From Terriglobia bacterium (GTDB lineage Bacteria > Acidobacteriota > Terriglobia > Terriglobales > Acidobacteriaceae): DNA of 64,000 nt. The notes below the pieces were generated by a model that saw nothing but the letters and a program-made list of their open reading frames with translations, searched no databases and was not told the origin of the DNA. The translations under genes and the position numbers were made by a program. The stretch is taken from assembly GCA_020072845.1 (NCBI GenBank), contig JAIQGF010000012.1:1-64000 (forward strand), in the 5' to 3' direction. Positions 2,165-38,393 of this stretch are shown here, piece after piece; positions within the stretch are counted from its first letter, which is position 1; each line of letters starts with the position of its first letter.

Positions 2165-2353
2165 ATGAGGACCACGAAGCGCTCCGCACGAACCAGCACG
2201 ATTCCCGATCCCACTCAATTGGAAAAACAAATCCGACTCCGCGCCTATGCACTCTATGAATCCCGTGGCTGCGAAGTCGGCCACGAACTCGACGACTGGC
2301 TGCAGGCCGAAGCGGAGATCCTCGGCAGGCAAGAAGGAGCCAGCGCCGCTTAA
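2165..2353 (+). CDS. DUF2934 family small protein
   Basis: A 62-residue protein. After a basic N-terminus it carries the DUF2934 signature: an RAYALYESRG helix, then a GHELDDWLQAEAEI helix. DUF2934 proteins are short soluble proteins of unknown function, frequent in Acidobacteriota and some Proteobacteria. The ATG at 2165 was chosen because it precedes the conserved core and follows a long AT-rich leader; an in-frame upstream extension to 2039 is possible but adds nothing family-like. It stands alone, 145 bp before nifJ, and may be independently transcribed. Confidence 0.75.
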   Translation: MRTTKRSARTSTIPDPTQLEKQIRLRAYALYESRGCEVGHELDDWLQAEAEILGRQEGASAA

Positions 2354-2498
2354 TCAACCCAGAATCTCCGCCCTGGAAAGTCCGGTCAAAAGCTCCGCGG
2401 GCTCGCTTTATAACGGCTCTTTCTTTTTCAGTCCCGCCGGCAAGACTGGAGTCCAAGGCAGACTCCGCATGACGAATCATTCAGGGAGACCAGCACTC

Positions 2499-6069
<3,571 letters not shown>

Positions 6070-6073
<4 letters not shown>

Positions 6074-23020: not shown

Positions 23021-23181
23021 GTGTCTGTGTCATAGCTCGATTTCGCGCGTTGCAGTGGTCCAAAAGCGAACCGAAACCAGCCGCGGAGCGGCGAAATTCG
23101 TTAGCCCACCGCGGCAGCGGTGGGAAAAGTGGAACAGAACTCGTGAGCGCCAGCGGCGCGGCACGGCTATGACACAGACAC
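23021..23181. mobile_element. 161-bp MITE-like element with 16-bp inverted ends and 5-bp duplication
   Basis: The left end GTGTCTGTGTCATAGC (23021-23036) is the exact inverse of the right end GCTATGACACAGACAC (23166-23181). Both ends are flanked by the direct repeat CGTAG (23016-23020 and 23182-23186), the hallmark of transposition. The interior is non-coding and includes a small hairpin (CCCACCGCGGCAGCGGTGGG). It is probably mobilised in trans by an IS transposase not present here. Confidence 0.8.
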
Positions 23182-25922: not shown

Positions 25923-27833
25923 CTAGTGCACCACAATTGCGCTGAGCAGTTTTGCTTGGCTGAGAGGGTTCTCGATTTCAAGAGGAATCTCGCCCGGTGA
26001 ATCAGCGCGGAAGGAAAAATCGTACGTTTCACCCGATGTGATGTTCAGGACCGCATCGCCGGAGCGCGCCAGGCGCGGAGGCACATCGGCGCCGTCTTTC
26101 GCCAGAGCGCGCCAGGTCGCGGGTTTGTCCTTGCTGCCGAGGCGGAAGTTCGCGATCAGATTCGGCGCCATGTTGATCAGGCGCAGCCGGTAGGTTGCGC
26201 CCGTGGCGAGCGTCATCGGCTGGGGCTTCTCCATGCCGTTGATGGTGATGCGCTTGGCAAAGAAGAACGTATCCCGCGTGCCGATGACCAGCAGCTTGTC
26301 GTGTTCGGCGTCAAACGGTTTCCCGGGTTCCAGCACGATGAGCGCGCCGTAGATGCCGCCGCTGAGCTGGTTCGGATCGGCCGCGTGCGTGTGATAGATA
26401 AAAGTGCCGGCGCGAGTGGGCGTGAAGCGGGCGACAAAGCTGCCGCCGGGCGGAACCGCCGGCGTGACCTGGTCTCCCACGCCACCGCCGACCACACCGT
26501 CGTAGTAGCTCTCCAGCACCAGGCCGTGCCAATGAATGGTGGTCGGCGCCTTGAGATGATTGAGAACGGTGATCTCGGTGGGTTCGCCGCGCGTGACCAC
26601 AATCGGCGGCCCGACGGCGCGGTCCTCCGACACCAGCACCTTGTTCTTCTCGCGCACCGAGCAGGAGAACTTCGGTTCCTTCCCGGCGGCTTCGACGTTG
26701 GGCTCGATGATGAGATCGATCTTGCGCGCCGGTTTGCCGGCAGTGGCCGCGGGCGGCGTGCCCGCCGCGGGTTTCACGTTGATCGTGAGCACCAGGCCGG
26801 CCATGTCATGCATCGCTTCCATGGCGCCGGCGCCGTGGTGCTGGTGGCCGGCAACGGCCGGCTCTTCGGGGCCGTACTGGCTGGGTATGACGCGCGTGAA
26901 AACCGGGAGGCGTTCGTCGCTCGACATGTGAAACTGAAAATGACAATGAAAAAGCCAACGTCCGGCGTTCTCCGGCGACCACTCCATCATCATCGTGCTG
27001 CCCGGCCGCATGGCTTCGGTGACCACTGACTGGCGGTCGCCGGGTGCGAATTGGGCGTCCTTCTCCGAGTCGCCGAGGCTGAGCAGCTTGAAAAACGCGC
27101 CATGCAGGTGCATGGGATGTACGGCAAAACTGGGATTGATCACGCGCCAGCGGATGGTGTCGCCGGCGGTATATTCCAGCGGCTCGGTAAACGGAAACGA
27201 CTTGCCATTGATACTGACGACTTCGAAGTTGTCGTGGGTGACATCGGGCTTGACGAACATCGCATTGATCACGAACACGCGGTCGGCGGCGACCACGCCC
27301 GGCGGATCCACGATGAAGGCGCCGTTCAGGTGGGCATCCTCGAAAACTGGTTGCCGAAGCACCCCCAGGGGCGGAACGTTCGGAGGCGCCGTGGTGCGCG
27401 CCCAGTAAAAGTACGTTCCGGGATCGCCCGCGAGGAAGGTACGCTCGCGGGTTTCGCCGGGCGGAACTTCGAGCGCGTCCTTGTCATCGCCGGGACGGGT
27501 GTTCAGGCCATGAACGGTGGCCTTCGTTTTCACTTTATTGGCCACGGTCACATGAATCTTGGTGCCCTGCGGCACGCGCAGCAGCGGGCCGGGTATCTGC
27601 GCCGGGTGGCCGGCTTCGCCAAACGCCTGCAAGTTCAACCGCGGTCCGTCCTCGGCCTCGGCGTGCCAGGCGCCTTGCACGATCTCGAGTTGCACATTGA
27701 GGACGCCGGATTCCAGCTTGCCGGCGGGAATGCGGTTCTGGTTGGCAACAATCGCAACCGGTGCGGATTGTGCTGCGACTGAGGCCAGCGCGGACAGGCA
27801 CACCAAGACCGCGCGACAGACAAGACGAACCAT
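25923..27833 (-). CDS. Secreted multicopper oxidase with permuted copper-motif order
   Basis: 636 residues with a signal peptide (~1-22) and about four cupredoxin domains. In typical three-domain oxidases copper motifs run HxHG, HxH, HxxHxH, HCHxxxH. Here the order is HPMHLHG, then HCHFQFHM (first half), then IHWHGL and FIYHTH (second half). The N-terminal domain has ligand-less remnants (TVHGLNTRPGDD, GTYFYWART), and the last domain also lacks ligands. The trinuclear and T1 ligands are therefore all present but circularly permuted, perhaps a duplicated two-domain oxidase that kept only the middle site. It likely oxidises metals or phenolics in the periplasm. It stands alone. Confidence 0.9.
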   Translation of the reverse strand: MVRLVCRAVLVCLSALASVAAQSAPVAIVANQNRIPAGKLESGVLNVQLEIVQGAWHAEAEDGPRLNLQAFGEAGHPAQIPGPLLRVPQGTKIHVTVANKVKTKATVHGLNTRPGDDKDALEVPPGETRERTFLAGDPGTYFYWARTTAPPNVPPLGVLRQPVFEDAHLNGAFIVDPPGVVAADRVFVINAMFVKPDVTHDNFEVVSINGKSFPFTEPLEYTAGDTIRWRVINPSFAVHPMHLHGAFFKLLSLGDSEKDAQFAPGDRQSVVTEAMRPGSTMMMEWSPENAGRWLFHCHFQFHMSSDERLPVFTRVIPSQYGPEEPAVAGHQHHGAGAMEAMHDMAGLVLTINVKPAAGTPPAATAGKPARKIDLIIEPNVEAAGKEPKFSCSVREKNKVLVSEDRAVGPPIVVTRGEPTEITVLNHLKAPTTIHWHGLVLESYYDGVVGGGVGDQVTPAVPPGGSFVARFTPTRAGTFIYHTHAADPNQLSGGIYGALIVLEPGKPFDAEHDKLLVIGTRDTFFFAKRITINGMEKPQPMTLATGATYRLRLINMAPNLIANFRLGSKDKPATWRALAKDGADVPPRLARSGDAVLNITSGETYDFSFRADSPGEIPLEIENPLSQAKLLSAIVVH

Positions 27834-27984
27834 TGAGCCACCCCGCAGGAATTAGGTGCGTGGATTGTTCGCCAAATGGGATCATGCTGTCAATAGGAAG
27901 ATGGGCCTCAGTAGCGCGTTTCGCGAACCAGGCCGACGGTTTATGATTGTTTCAATGCTTGGAAACCGCCGCGGGGAGCAGGTC

Positions 27985-28290
27985 ATGGAGAAAGTCATGC
28001 CGAAGTGGAGAAAAGCACTGGTCATTGGGTCGCTGAGCGCGGGCGCTCTGATGTTCATCAAGGGTCGCCGCCCCGCCGGGATCGCGCTGGCCACCGTGGG
28101 GCTGGCGGTTCTCGCCGCCGAGTATCCGGACAAGTTCGAAACCGCGTGGGAGCAGGCGCCGGGGTTTATCTATCGCGGCACGCAGATCTTCTCCACGCTC
28201 TCACGCATTGCCGAGCGCTTTGCCGACCAAGCCAGCCGGCGCGGCACGATCGAGGCCTTACGCGACATCAGCGCCGAGTACGCGCGCTAA
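27985..28290 (+). CDS. Small hypothetical protein with hydrophobic segments
   Basis: 101 residues. Two adjacent hydrophobic stretches (~10-24 KALVIGSLSAGALMF and ~32-45 GIALATVGLAVLAAEY) are followed by an amphipathic C-terminal helix (IFSTLSRIAERFADQASRRG). ATG 27985 follows GGGGAG; upstream in-frame ATGs at 27943 and 27955 are possible. It ends 19 bp before the UGA-containing peroxiredoxin and may be cotranscribed. No family is recognised. Confidence 0.6.
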   Translation: MEKVMPKWRKALVIGSLSAGALMFIKGRRPAGIALATVGLAVLAAEYPDKFETAWEQAPGFIYRGTQIFSTLSRIAERFADQASRRGTIEALRDISAEYAR

Positions 28291-28309
28291 ACTGAGAAAT
28301 CGTGTGGCC

Positions 28310-28852
28310 ATGAGCGCACCGCGCGTTGGTGATGTAGCGTCCGAGATCGTGCTCTCGGATTCGACGGGCGAGAAGCGCAGCTTGTCGTCCCTGACTCCGT
28401 GCGTCCTGGTTTTCTACCGCGGCCACTGGTGACCCTTCTGCATCCGCCAGTTGGCGGATTATCGCGACCGTACGGACGCCTTTTTGCGGGCGGGATATCG
28501 CGTCGCCGCTTTGTCGGTGGATGAGCCGCAGCGCACCGAGCATCTGCGGCGGACGTTGAGCGTGTCCTTCCCAATTTGGTGCGACGTCGAGCGGCAGGTG
28601 GTGCGCGACTGGGATTTGTTCAATCCTCGCGAGAAGGGCGGCATCGCCGTGCCGGCCACGTTCGTGCTCGACGGCGAGCGGCGCGTGCGCCTCTCCTCCA
28701 TCGAGGACGTGCGACATCGCGCCGGCGCCGACGAGGTGCTGGCGTGCGTGCGCACCCAGGCGACGCAGGCGGCCAAGCGAACGCTGCGCCCCGCCATGTT
28801 GCGCGCGCTGCGCAACATGTTCCGCTACGGCCTCGTCTCGCCGCGAAAATGA
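28310..28852 (+). CDS. Peroxiredoxin-like (AhpC/TSA) protein with in-frame UGA, candidate selenoprotein
   Basis: One continuous frame of 181 codons is interrupted only by TGA at 28430-28432. Read as selenocysteine it gives FYRGHW-U-PFC (Sec41), the exact position of the catalytic Cys in AhpC/TSA-like proteins with FYRGxWCPxC. The frame then continues through IRQLADYRDRTDAF, VAALSVDEPQRTEHLRR and VPATFVLDGERRVR, all thioredoxin-fold features, to a normal stop. A 7-bp hairpin starts 9 bases after the UGA and fits a bacterial SECIS. It probably reduces peroxides using Sec. Start ATG 28310. A nonsense mutation is the alternative, but the sequence beyond the UGA shows no decay. Confidence 0.8.
28442..28459 (+). 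promoter_or_regulatory. Candidate bacterial SECIS hairpin
   Basis: ATCCGCC-AGTT-GGCGGAT is a perfect 7-bp stem with a 4-base loop, in the message just after the in-frame UGA. The loop begins 16 nt after the UGA and has G in its first two bases, matching the published bacterial SECIS rules (loop 16-37 nt away, G among the first two loop bases). Confidence 0.7.
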
Positions 28853-29057
28853 GTTGACGGCCGGGCCCTACTCAATCTGCATCTGATGATGTGAGCGCGT
28901 GTCCCGGCCGAGCGCAGCGAGGATCGACCATATCTCTGCTAGAACGATTCCCCACCGTGGAAATCCAGGCTAGCCGCCATCGTTCCGGGAAGACATGGCG
29001 CCGGACTCTGAACTGCGTACCCGCGCACCGAGCGTTTTCATCCCATAAAATACATTC

Positions 29058-29744
29058 ATGTCGGAGCGAAACCGCTGGCTCGTGGTGGTGTTGTTCGGCA
29101 CGGCGATGGGGTGGATGGAATCCGCCACCGTGGTGTACTTGCGGATGCTGGTGGGCCGCGTCAATCCTTACCAGCTCAACCCGCTGCCGCGGCATCAGGC
29201 GCTGGGCAATACCGAGCTCGTACGCGAGCTGGCCACGCTGCTGATGCTGTTTGCCGTTGGCTGGCTTGCGGGACGCAACTGGCGCACGCGGTTGTCGTAT
29301 TCGCTGATCGCCTTCGGCGTGTGGGACATCCTCTACTACGTTTTTCTGGCGATGATTGCCGGGTGGCCGCAGTCGCTCCTCGACTGGGACGTTCTGTTTC
29401 TCATCCCGCTGCCGTGGTGGGCGCCGGTGATCGCGCCGGTGACGATCGCGGCGCTGATGGTGGTGGGAGGTACCCTGGTCACGCAGTTTGGCGAGGCGCG
29501 CTTCTGGCCTTCGCGCTGGTCGCTGGCGCTGAATGCCGTCGGGATTCTGCTGGCCCTGGCGGTCTTTATGCAGGACTCGATGCGCGCGGTCTCCGGAGGC
29601 GAGCCGGCGCTGCGCACCATGCTGCCCGCGCGATTCAACTGGCCGTGGTTCGGGTTGGCGCTGTTGCTGATGTCGGCGGCCATCTTCGACCTGCTGTGGC
29701 AGATGGCGCGTGGACGGAGTTCGTCTTCGGCGGCCGCCGATTGA
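29058..29744 (+). CDS. Polytopic inner-membrane protein
   Basis: 228 residues with about six predicted TM helices (LVVVLFGTAMGW; LATLLMLFAVGWLAG; LIAFGVWDILYYVFLAMIAG; VIAPVTIAALMVVGGTLV; LNAVGILLALAVFM; FGLALLLMSAAIFDLLW). There is no transporter or enzyme signature. Similar proteins are annotated only as hypothetical membrane proteins. It is a single gene preceded by a 205-base spacer. Confidence 0.75.
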   Translation: MSERNRWLVVVLFGTAMGWMESATVVYLRMLVGRVNPYQLNPLPRHQALGNTELVRELATLLMLFAVGWLAGRNWRTRLSYSLIAFGVWDILYYVFLAMIAGWPQSLLDWDVLFLIPLPWWAPVIAPVTIAALMVVGGTLVTQFGEARFWPSRWSLALNAVGILLALAVFMQDSMRAVSGGEPALRTMLPARFNWPWFGLALLLMSAAIFDLLWQMARGRSSSSAAAD

Positions 29745-29870
29745 TTCCTGATTGCGCTGCACGATGAACTTCTGTCGCTCACCTCAGGCGACCAACGTCG
29801 GTACAATGGCGATTAGGCGGCGGTTTTGCAGGGATACGTCCTGCAGCCTGTGCAGCCTGGAGCCCGGTTC

Positions 29871-30605
29871 ATGGCACGACGCAAGCGCGGCAAATCCACG
29901 GCGGCAAAACTGCTGCAATTCCTGCTGCTGGTGGCGCTGGTCGCCGCCGGCGTGCGGCTGTACTTCATCCTCCGCGAGCGCACGCGCCCGGCGGCCCCCA
30001 AGCCCAAAGCGGCGGTTCGCCCGCTGAATCGCGAAGCCTACGTGGTGCCGCGCAAGCTGCATGCGTACGACTTGGCTTCCGCGCGCGAACTGACCAGGCA
30101 GCCCGTCTGGGTGCAGGAGGGCTACCGCTACACCTACTATCCCTACGACTCCGCCAGGCGGCGCGCCGATTTCGTGCACGAAGCGGGCCTGCTCGGGCCA
30201 ATTGAGGAGCTGCACATCACCAACGTGGTCGCGCAGCCCACGCCCAACAAGCCCAACTATCACCAGATTGCTGCGATTTTCGAGAAATCCGGACGCAGCT
30301 ACGCCGTGCCGGTGGGCACCGAGTCCGGCGGCTCGTTCCAGATCTATGCCGACCAGATGTTTTTTTATGAAGATCCGCGCCAGCTCTACGGCTTCTGGCC
30401 GGCGGAGACCTGGGAGGCGATCCGCAACCACGAGGTCACACTCGGCATGAACGAATTCCAGGCTGACTTCGCGGTCGGCATGGGCGTCCCGCAGCCGCAA
30501 CAAACCGATCCCGACGTGAAAATCGTGAAATACCCCAACGGCGGTCACGCTCTGACCGTTACCTATCGCAAGGGACGGGCGGTAAAGATCGCCAAGAAGG
30601 ATTAA
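29871..30605 (+). CDS. Membrane-anchored hypothetical protein
   Basis: 244 residues. A basic N-terminus and one TM helix (~13-33, LLQFLLLVALVAAGVRLYFI) are followed by a proline/basic linker and an extracytoplasmic domain of ~190 residues rich in aromatic strands (YRYTYYPYDSARRRADFVHEAG; FYEDPRQLYGFWPAETWEAI; VTLGMNEFQADFAVGMG). The domain is unrecognised. ATG 29871 was chosen because GGAG lies 7 bases upstream and the TM helix follows directly. Confidence 0.7.
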   Translation: MARRKRGKSTAAKLLQFLLLVALVAAGVRLYFILRERTRPAAPKPKAAVRPLNREAYVVPRKLHAYDLASARELTRQPVWVQEGYRYTYYPYDSARRRADFVHEAGLLGPIEELHITNVVAQPTPNKPNYHQIAAIFEKSGRSYAVPVGTESGGSFQIYADQMFFYEDPRQLYGFWPAETWEAIRNHEVTLGMNEFQADFAVGMGVPQPQQTDPDVKIVKYPNGGHALTVTYRKGRAVKIAKKD

Positions 30606-32453: not shown

Positions 32454-32898
32454 CATGCGCACCTGAAATCATCCTACGCCCGCGCCAAGCCAGGGACTGT
32501 TCAATTTTGCTCGGCCAAAACTCCTTCTGCCCGCTATCGGACAAAGTCGTGTATCATTAGTCTCCGCGTGCGTTAGTGCACACCCCCCTGTATTCGCAGT
32601 CGACCGCGATACTGGTTACTCTCAACCTCCGCTCCTGCCGCTGGATTAAGGGTTACGGCGGCCTTGCCTTCTGGAGCAAACCGGCGTTTCAAGGCGCCGC
32701 AGTTCGAAATATTCATCCGGAACCGCTCTGACAGACTTGCCGTTCCGCCGGCCCAGGGTCACGGCACTTCGGGTTCCGTCAAAGAGGACAACGCAATGTT
32801 GCATACAGCGCCGGCGCGATGCAGATTCACGGTTCTTTGCTGAACGTCATCCTGCACGACTAGCCGGCACTCAATCGGAGGAAACGGGTCATGGGCGC
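32454..32898. other. Intergenic region
   Basis: A 445-base spacer between divergent genes. Its left end holds the promoter-like block described separately. The remainder is unremarkable mixed sequence, and no RNA gene or coding frame with a ribosome site was recognised. An in-frame extension of the following gene back to 32737 is open but has no family features. Confidence 0.45.
32459..32510 (-). promoter_or_regulatory. Shared promoter-like block, copy 2
   Basis: On the minus strand: GCAAAATTGAACA, 17 bases, GGCGTAGGATGA, 4 bases, AGGTGC, running into the start of the 38-residue membrane protein gene. It matches the block at 31440-31490. Confidence 0.55.
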
Positions 32899-36359: not shown

Positions 36360-38393
36360 ATGCGTGGGGACGGCACCATCGTTCCGATCATCCTGGCCGC
36401 CGGCGCCTCCGACCTGGGGTTCCCCAAGGCGCTGGCCAGATTCGGCGGCAGAACCGCGCTGGAAATCGCGGTCGAAAACTGCGCCGCGCTGCAAGCCCCG
36501 GTTGTCGTGTTGGGTAGTGAGGCGGAGCGCGTGCGCGAATTCATCCCTGCCGGCGCGCGCGTCGTGGTCAACGCGAACTGGCGTGCGGGACAGATGTCGT
36601 CGCTGCAGGCAGCTCTTGCCGGGATCGCGCCCGGCGCCGATTTCATGCTCTACCCGGTGGATTATCCACTGCTCACGCGCCCGGTGATTGCGAAGCTGGC
36701 GGCGGCATTCCGCACGCGCTTAACCGGGCAAGCGATCGCGATACCGAGATGCAAGCGTCGCGGCGGACATCCGGTGATCTTTGCGTCGGAGCTGCGCGCG
36801 GAATTTGAACAATCGCAGACGGCGCGCGAAATCGTGTACCGCGATGCCGCGCGCGTCAGATCGGTGCCGGTCGCAACCGACGCCATCTGGCGCGATCTCG
36901 ACAGCCCGGCTGCGTACCGCGCTCGCGTGCGGGAGTACGCCGCAGTCTCCAGTCGCCAGTCTCCAGTCGCCAGGACCTTTCGCCTGGAGACTGGCGACCG
37001 GCGACCGGCGACTCGCTTGAAAAGTCCCGAAGGGACGGCACGCCTCTCTTCCTATCTCGACGAGGTCCGCGCCGGCCTCCCGGTCACGCCCGAGCGGGCG
37101 CTGCACCTCATCCAATGCACTGATCGCGACTTGCCCGAATTGCTCGCCACCGCCATCCGCCTCAAAGAGCAATTCAAACCCGGCGTCATTACCTACTCGC
37201 GCAAGGTCTTCCTGCCGCTCACCAATCTTTGTCGCGATTATTGCGGCTACTGCATCTTCCGGCGCGATCCCGGCCAGCCCGGCGCGCACACCATGACGCC
37301 CGACGAAGTCCTGCGCGTGGCCCGCGAAGGCGAGCGCCTGGGCTGCCGCGAAGCGCTGTTCAGCCTGGGCGACAAGCCGGAACTCGTCTTCCCGGAAATG
37401 CGCGCTGCCCTGCGCCGCCTCGGGTACAAATCCACTCTGCATTATCTGGAAGCGATGTGCGAGCTGGTGCTGCGCGAGACCGGCACCATTCCCCACGCCA
37501 ATCCCGGCCTCATGAGCCCGCAATGGCTGCGGCGTCTGCGCGCGGTTTCGCCCAGCGTCGGCCTGATGCTGGAAACCACCAGCGACAAGCTCATGAAACT
37601 GGCGGCCCACCGCGGCGCGCCCGACAAGGCGCCAGCGCTGCGCTTGGCGGTGATCGAGGCCGCCGGCCGTCAGGCGATTCCGTTCACCACCGGAATCCTG
37701 GTCGGCATCGGAGAAACCGCGCGCGACCGGGTGGACTCGCTGTTCGCCATCGCCGAACTGCACCGCCGCTACGGGCACATCCAGGAAGTAATCGTGCAGA
37801 ATTTCCGTGTGAAAGCCGGGATCCCGATGTCGCGCCGTGCCGAGCCGAGCATGGGCGTGATGCTGCGCACCGTCGCCGTGGCGCGGCTCATTCTGCGTAA
37901 CATGAATGTTCAGGCGCCGCCGAACCTGTCCGCGCCGAATTATCACGAACTGCTCTCGGCGGGCATCAACGACTGGGGCGGGATTTCGCCGCTCACGCCC
38001 GATTACATCAATCCCGAGCGCCCATGGCCTCATCTCCGCGAACTGGAAGAGCGTACCCGCGCTGCCGGGTGTGCGCTGCGCCAGCGCCTGCCGGTCTATC
38101 CGGAGTTTCTGGAGAACGTCGCACAGGCCGGAGGTCCGGCCGCGCAGAAAACGCGCGCCGCGGCGGATGCGGACGGATACGCCATGAGCACGAGCTCAGC
38201 CCAGGGTCTCCCTGCGAATCAAGTGCCTCCTTTTAGAGGTGTCATCCCGAGCGAGGGCGCACGCCCGAGTCGAGAGCCTGCCCTGAGCTCGTCGAAGGGG
38301 ACCCCTACGGTGCCGAACGCCACCGTGCCGTCCGCAGCTTCTCGATCCGGCAGTTCGGCAATTCAACCGATAACCGATAACCGTGAACCGTAA
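36360..38393 (+). CDS. cofG: MocA-like nucleotidyltransferase fused to CofG (Fo synthase subunit 1)
   Basis: 677 residues in one frame. Residues ~1-195 are a MobA/MocA-like NTP transferase (PIILAAGASDLGFPKALARF, VDYPLLTRPV, RRGGHPVIF). Residues ~230-590 are CofG, 7,8-didemethyl-8-hydroxy-5-deazariboflavin synthase, with the radical SAM motif CRDYCGYCIF, then FSLGDKPE and APPNLSAPNYHELL. CofG works with CofH to build Fo from tyrosine and a flavin precursor. The linker (~195-220) is encoded by inverted heptamer arrays, and the last ~60 residues by dispersed repeat sequence, so the fusion may be accidental read-through. TTG 37017 could start a separate CofG. Confidence 0.85.
   Translation: MRGDGTIVPIILAAGASDLGFPKALARFGGRTALEIAVENCAALQAPVVVLGSEAERVREFIPAGARVVVNANWRAGQMSSLQAALAGIAPGADFMLYPVDYPLLTRPVIAKLAAAFRTRLTGQAIAIPRCKRRGGHPVIFASELRAEFEQSQTAREIVYRDAARVRSVPVATDAIWRDLDSPAAYRARVREYAAVSSRQSPVARTFRLETGDRRPATRLKSPEGTARLSSYLDEVRAGLPVTPERALHLIQCTDRDLPELLATAIRLKEQFKPGVITYSRKVFLPLTNLCRDYCGYCIFRRDPGQPGAHTMTPDEVLRVAREGERLGCREALFSLGDKPELVFPEMRAALRRLGYKSTLHYLEAMCELVLRETGTIPHANPGLMSPQWLRRLRAVSPSVGLMLETTSDKLMKLAAHRGAPDKAPALRLAVIEAAGRQAIPFTTGILVGIGETARDRVDSLFAIAELHRRYGHIQEVIVQNFRVKAGIPMSRRAEPSMGVMLRTVAVARLILRNMNVQAPPNLSAPNYHELLSAGINDWGGISPLTPDYINPERPWPHLRELEERTRAAGCALRQRLPVYPEFLENVAQAGGPAAQKTRAAADADGYAMSTSSAQGLPANQVPPFRGVIPSEGARPSREPALSSSKGTPTVPNATVPSAASRSGSSAIQPITDNREP
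36943..37011. repeat. Inverted heptamer arrays inside the mocA-cofG frame
   Basis: CAGTCTC, CAGTCGC, CAGTCTC, CAGTCGC (36943-36970), then after 13 bases CTGGAGA, CTGGCGA, CCGGCGA, CCGGCGA (36984-37011). The second set is the inverse family of the first. It encodes the interdomain linker. Confidence 0.8.

Follow-up and report, generated by a model that had tools for sequence, protein, structure and literature searches.

The window analysed here is a stretch of 64,000 nucleotides from the genome of a Terriglobia bacterium of the phylum Acidobacteriota (assembly GCA_020072845.1, contig JAIQGF010000012.1, positions 1 to 64,000). At 28310-28852 on its forward strand lies a candidate gene for a UxxC peroxiredoxin-like (Prx-like) selenoprotein. 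It consists of a single 180-residue frame with an AhpC/TSA fold, which opens with an ATG at 28310 and closes with a TGA terminator at 28850-28852. The sole internal stop of this frame is the TGA at 28430-28432, codon 41. When it is translated as selenocysteine (Sec, U), residue 41 becomes the first position of a U-P-F-C motif, whose second half, Cys44, is encoded at 28439-28441; the codon for Pro115 lies at 28652-28654, all on the forward strand. The Pfam model AhpC-TSA (PF00578) matches the product across the UGA, over residues 6-127, with an E-value of 1.6e-22 and 80.2 bits (cut-off 26). The first-pass annotation had described a continuous AhpC/TSA-like frame with one internal TGA, and both the translation and this match bear it out. 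The coding sequence is further delineated by homologues of the same architecture and by an AlphaFold2 model. In a codon-usage scan of the window's TGA codons with an open frame on both sides, four TGAs outrank 28430-28432; by reading of their coordinates, three mark where adjoining frames end and the fourth is opposite a longer frame. Judging from the sequence evidence set out below, 28310-28852 is almost certainly a real selenoprotein gene. Its stop at codon 41 is very probably read as selenocysteine, yielding a small redox enzyme of a class known in bacteria.

The identity of codon 41 was followed through two sets of homologues. Of 150 related genomes searched, 142 yielded a match; among the best 30, fetched as L021-L050, this codon is TGA in 29, the exception being L047 with TGC. 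When a profile was run against 396 genomes of the phylum, 132 of them matched at an E-value of 1e-20; in the 30 loci fetched from these (L055-L084), TGA is found in 26 and a Cys codon in four (L071, L079, L083 and L084). Pooled, the 60 fetched loci carry 55 UGA and five Cys codons, including two repeats that were removed, namely L056, which is the window itself, and L055, which equals L025. A contig scan added three distant Cys homologues from Pseudomonadota, as well as L054, which has ACG (Thr) at column 41, lacks the motif and was dropped from the counts. The loci kept comprise 53 with UGA and eight with Cys (TGC or TGT) at the same column, three of the latter from named Pseudomonadota. These shares are not population frequencies, since the loci were selected as top matches to a query from a Sec family, and many weaker matches in both searches of relatives have no internal stop. 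In a tree of the 61 rows, whose bootstrap had not settled, the Cys label needs three changes. The nearest relative, with 91.7% protein identity, has the same UGA and no further stop. The expectation that homologues would show either Cys or UGA at residue 41 is matched by the fetched relatives, in which the frame around it is intact.

The genome to which the window belongs (4.23 Mb in 27 contigs, 100% complete) is equipped for Sec insertion, with tRNA-Sec, selA, selB and selD all present; such machinery had been implied for the host beforehand. The tRNA-Sec gene is located at C19:37445-37539, reaches 66.8 bits and is called SeC by ARAGORN, which assigns a second hit above the cut-off (48.8 bits) to tRNA-Ser. 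Scores of 563.7 bits for selA, 364.7 bits for selB and 352 bits over two pieces for selD were obtained. At an E-value of 0.001, the models for tRNA-Sec, selB and selD match in all 14 of 14 control genomes and that for selA in four; over the cut-offs, the numbers are five of 14 for tRNA-Sec, two each for selB and selD, and one for selA. Because weak matches are so common in the controls, it is the high scores, together with the assignment by ARAGORN, that carry the claim of a Sec machinery. The selD gene (L017, G000:C11:217051-218031) has an in-frame UGA of its own in the context VKAAG-U-ASKLS, which is presumably the usual Sec site of SelD. Judged by this codon, SelD of this genome would itself be a selenoprotein.

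Among the relatives, the occurrence of the internal TGA was compared with that of selA, which exceeds its cut-off in 114 of the 150 related genomes. TGA is present in 84 of 122 matches from genomes with selA versus 2 of 28 from genomes without it, among the 150 matches listed (Fisher p 1.2e-9); the test takes rows as independent, and the place of the TGA was checked in the fetched loci only. The TGA-bearing matches found without selA come from two drafts, G099 (82% complete) and G005 (84% complete). By elimination, the genome whose best match is the Cys form L047 (G115) has no selA.

A perfect hairpin, ATCCGCC-AGTT-GGCGGAT, starts nine bases past the TGA, at 28442-28459 on the forward strand. 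This putative bacterial SECIS element has a 7-bp stem (28442-28448 with 28453-28459) and an AGUU loop (28449-28452) that starts 16 nt past the UGA; the second base of the loop is G, followed by U. The bacterial SECIS rule, as worded in PMC13188914, asks for a loop 16-37 nt from the UGA, a loop of 3-9 nt, a stem of 4-16 bp and a G in the first two loop positions. The hairpin agrees with this rule, its 16 nt being the lower edge of the distance range, and so its earlier description as a SECIS-like element with an AGUU loop 16 nt from the UGA holds. In the window gene alone, 3.45% of 2000 synonymous recodings yield a hairpin of 7 bp or more that obeys the rule, and the folding energy is ordinary in comparison with synonymous recodings (p 0.144; seven of 29 UGA rows fall below 0.05). 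For these two reasons the hairpin of a single sequence is only suggestive, and it is the relatives that decide.

Since folding energy did not single out the window gene, a count of rule-abiding hairpins was used in its place, with no choice of rows by the AGTT loop. It covered 52 of the 53 UGA loci, one being dropped for an N or a short end. Of the 52 UGA codons, 51 are followed by a hairpin that obeys the rule with 5 bp or more, whereas 200 synonymous shuffles gave a mean of 23.5 and a highest count of 31. At 6 bp the count is 42 versus 11.3 in shuffles, and at 7 bp it is 25 versus 3.4. Such a hairpin (at least 5 bp) follows the Cys codon in two of eight rows. The best loop starts at 16 nt in 28 of the 53 rows (window included); spacings of 20-21 nt and of 23-25 nt account for 12 rows each, and the remaining row has no such loop. 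These several spacings indicate that the SECIS elements of different clades sit on different codons.

Covariation in the 7-bp helix was scored on 24 of 29 UGA loci (22 of them distinct) picked for an AGTT loop at the same place, a choice that favours the structure; five of the seven pairs are changed on both sides. The score of 0.326 exceeds the 0.133 of shuffles and that of every slid control, the maximum there being the 0.224 of the control displaced by +1, which also has five pairs with double changes. Pairing is incomplete across the alignment: among the 22 rows, the outer two pairs are open in 13 and 7, and each of the inner two in 7, the latter belonging to a group with a 5-nt loop. Additionally, the codon for Leu48 is TTR in 25 of 29 UGA loci of L021-L050 and in 29 of all 53; elsewhere in these sets, TTR accounts for 95 of 461 and 143 of 794 Leu codons, respectively. 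The counts treat related rows as independent. A first version of this test, with TTR in 24 of 24 rows, was rejected as circular, its rows having been chosen by the AGTT loop. A search of 28200-28900 against Rfam at an E-value of 5 gave no match to a SECIS family, and one chance-level hit to another family. A covariance model of the hairpin, run over 41 genomes, returned 14 matches below an E-value of 0.001, which are the window gene and relatives among the model's own rows. It found no further genes of the same kind in these 41 genomes, the other hits being weak (E 0.26 and above).

The AlphaFold2 model of the product has a mean pLDDT of 88.1, and the best matches in a structural search with it are peroxiredoxins, led by BcpB (5epf; Z 22.0, rmsd 1.9 over 149). 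Peroxiredoxins are recognised by a catalytic PxxxTxxC signature and an Arg. The window protein has R37 for the Pro, U41 for the Thr and P115 for the Arg, with C44 kept. In four Prx alignments, residue 41 falls on the Thr/Ser of TxxC, Cys44 on the peroxidatic Cys and Pro115 on the Arg. Pro115 may be the counterpart of the cis-Pro of thioredoxin. Against ResA, and only there, W40-U41-P-F-C44 aligns with W-C-P-H-C, which makes residue 41 the first Cys of a CxxC motif. Over the 61 rows, R37 is conserved in 61, W40 and C44 in 60 each and P115 in 54. Cys44 is present in 52 of 53 Sec rows and in all eight Cys rows, and Pro115 in 47 and seven, respectively. R137 is kept in 44 of the 53 Sec rows, but its column differs from that of the Prx Arg. 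Judging by the alignments and the model, the product is a Prx scaffold with a thioredoxin-like active site. The first-pass annotation had proposed a Sec peroxiredoxin with Sec at the catalytic Cys. Its selenoprotein part stands, while the peroxidatic position does not, the motif being UxxC with Cys44 on the peroxidatic column.

Two kinds of relatives differ in their active sites. A second UGA-bearing UxxC group (L043, L045, L048 and L050) has its SECIS loop about 24-25 nt from the UGA, and three of its four members, L043, L045 and L048, retain Arg at column 115; this group may be intermediate between a Prx and a thioredoxin-like site. The other is L046 (1498-1881), on a long branch, which has Sec41 together with Asp44 (U-P-K-D). 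It is possibly an enzyme with one Sec and no resolving Cys in this motif, and it fits a catalytic role of Sec41, long-branched as it is.

The computed part of the account comprises the conservation of the UGA, the conservation and covariation of the hairpin, the full Sec machinery and selection past the UGA; for actual Sec insertion, the order of the chemistry, the substrate and the reductant, we infer the following. The hairpin at 28442-28459 would recruit SelB loaded with Sec-tRNA(Sec), and the UGA at 28430 would thereby be recoded. Sec41 would then act as the nucleophile, attacking a disulfide, a sulfenic acid or a hydroperoxide, and Cys44 would resolve the intermediate as a selenenylsulfide, which thioredoxin or a similar dithiol may reduce. 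Taken as a whole, with both the recoding and this chemistry, the account of the 28310-28852 product is held with high confidence.

The best-surviving alternative overlaps with this account and concerns function. The protein might be a Sec-dependent peroxidase, although not a Prx by motif, with Sec41 attacking hydroperoxides and Cys44 resolving. The combination of the Prx Arg with UxxC in L043, L045 and L048 speaks for it, as does L046, whose Asp44 implies that Sec41 can stand alone. However, Pro replaces the Prx Arg in 47 of the 53 Sec rows, and L046 sits on a long branch. A peroxidase mode is conceivable for some members, given the Arg retained in those three loci; as an explanation of the window gene, we regard it as unlikely, though worth keeping in mind. 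Far less probable is a true Sec-peroxiredoxin, in which Sec would be the peroxidatic residue. Its appeal lies in the fold and in the best sequence matches, which are peroxiredoxins, but that class is given as TxxU in PMC2398784 and PMC1088965, whereas the motif here is UxxC. Moreover, residue 41 lies on the Thr/Ser column, and R37 and P115 replace the Pro and the Arg of peroxiredoxins.

The preferred reading, a UxxC selenoprotein, also has to be weighed against the idea that the codon is not recoded at all. A pseudogene or an assembly error, in which a sense codon has become TGA, can always be argued when one draft genome shows a lone TGA, yet 53 distinct loci have UGA at this codon, with hairpins, and the nearest relative has no further stop. 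In addition, dN/dS on the 3' side of the UGA is 0.32-0.51 in comparisons with six relatives (dS exceeds 0.9 for all but the nearest), which indicates that the downstream part is under purifying selection. This possibility is hardly credible. The signs named in the first-pass annotation as speaking against recoding, namely a genome without sel genes or close relatives with the same TGA and other disabling mutations, are not what was found: the sel genes are there, and the nearest relative (91.7%) shares the TGA with no other stop. Least credible of all is decoding of the UGA as another amino acid or plain read-through, since the gene's own terminator is TGA, Cys is the alternative residue in all eight other rows kept (the Thr row L054 having been dropped), and TGA-bearing matches track selA.

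By domain and motif, the assignment of the gene to the known Prx-like pfam00578 UxxC class is well supported. A Prx-like selenoprotein with UxxC, as opposed to the TxxU of Sec-peroxiredoxins, is reported in the Sargasso Sea survey (PMC1088965). Table 2 of the GOS survey has the entry 'Prx-like 1, pfam00578, UxxC' and gives Sec-peroxiredoxins as TxxU (PMC2398784). Reviews name the class 'Prx-like thiol:disulfide oxidoreductase' (PMC9312934, PMC13188914). The window gene shares the Pfam domain and the UxxC motif with these proteins, for which WP_010940744.1 is a listed example; the likeness established is one of domain and motif. The window gene differs from the published examples in its occurrence in Acidobacteriota, in a C-terminal tail common to some relatives and in an R-Q-L-A hairpin that characterises its clade.

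Other known systems resemble the window protein in part. Sec-peroxiredoxins (pfam00578, TxxU) share its fold and Pfam family, but they have Sec at the opposite end of the motif, and the Pro, Thr and Arg of peroxiredoxins are not kept in the window protein. The best NCBIfam match is the SelL-related redox protein NF040769 (8.2e-10, residues 10-103), at 38.6 bits versus a cut-off of 120, too low for the window protein to count as a member by this model. ResA-type oxidoreductases (CxxC) align their W-C-P-x-C with W-U-P-F-C (phmmer 1.4e-8, 3c71), with Cys in ResA where the window protein has Sec. The structural matches (the best 50 in each list) are peroxiredoxins, and the absence of ResA from the best 50 shows nothing.

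With regard to the phylum, a table in PMC1794560 gives three selenoprotein families for Acidobacteria, and a table in PMC12013277 gives three selenoprotein genes for one Acidobacteriota genome. PMC5029168 names three other groups as selenoprotein-rich. Among the papers listed in a literature search, none was devoted to the selenoproteome of Acidobacteria or Acidobacteriota, as judged by title and the beginning of the abstract, which is weak evidence of absence.

DNA comparisons point to an apparent transfer unit at 28299-28974 (forward strand), which G062, a genome from a different genus, shares at 93% DNA identity although the surroundings are otherwise unrelated. The protein is 91.7% identical to its G062 counterpart, while SelA of the same pair of genomes reaches only 68%. 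SelA identity is 80-84% for three genomes that belong to the window's own genus, yet these show no DNA match to 28299-28974 at an E-value of 1e-5. Among 398 genomes of the family, the whole segment is found only in G062 besides the window's own genome. The surroundings in G062, a 21-kb contig, gave no DNA match to those in the window. In G002, two matched neighbours are 118 bases apart (32677 to 32796), whereas the window has 2.1 kb between them. On these comparisons the segment looks horizontally acquired, transfer being the simplest reading, and a misbinned contig in G062 is a conceivable alternative.

The surrounding region is a variable spot, at 27806-29893, between a multicopper oxidase gene (25923-27833) and a frame at 29826-30605, the interval for which G002 has the 118 bases. 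In G003 this spot extends over some 17 kb, and that genome has the small gene corresponding to 27985-28290 elsewhere, about 10 kb from the first gene. An integron cassette was considered for 28299-28974 and rejected, as no attC-like ends were seen by eye and no repeat pair occurs at the borders. An operon with the small gene 27985-28290 and the membrane protein gene 29058-29744 was likewise rejected: neither matches in L021-L084 except in L021 and L056, which are the window itself, the flanks of loci from G genomes measuring about 1.5 kb or less in this comparison.

Elsewhere in the window, a pyruvate:ferredoxin oxidoreductase (2247-6073) is split over two frames, with a frame change near 5180. 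Positions 1-878 of TIGR02176 are matched by 2247-5246 and positions 888-1166 by the frame 4532-6073, and the split is either an assembly frameshift or a real break. A 677-residue fusion at 36360-38393 joins a MobA-like NTP transferase domain (residues 10-155) to CofG of coenzyme F420 synthesis (TIGR03550, residues 278-586). An Acido-Lenti-1 RNA (RF01687) is located at 23079-23124 on the reverse strand, with 53 bits; this RNA family points to Acidobacteriota.

A broader picture of the family can be offered tentatively, with somewhat less than even confidence. The UxxC Prx-like family in the phylum may be mainly carried in its Sec form, Cys forms being few in number and restricted phylogenetically. 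The SECIS elements of the family may be laid over different codons by clade, with loops that start 16, roughly 20-21 or roughly 23-25 nt past the UGA, and single genes with their SECIS may move between genera as self-contained units into Sec-equipped hosts. With its natural Sec/Cys pairs and its SECIS elements in several registers, the family lends itself to work on how such an element is accommodated within coding sequence. The finding also bears on annotation. Gene callers would at best give the 133-residue frame past the UGA (28451-28852), and nine NCBIfam models match the full protein at an E-value of 0.01 with none reaching its cut-off. On both counts, the half with the active site would be lost from annotation, so that the earlier claim that the gene would be missed is probably right. 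Most of the top matches in the sampled phylum are Sec forms and, with the UGA form so frequent among them, many redox enzymes there are probably mis-annotated.
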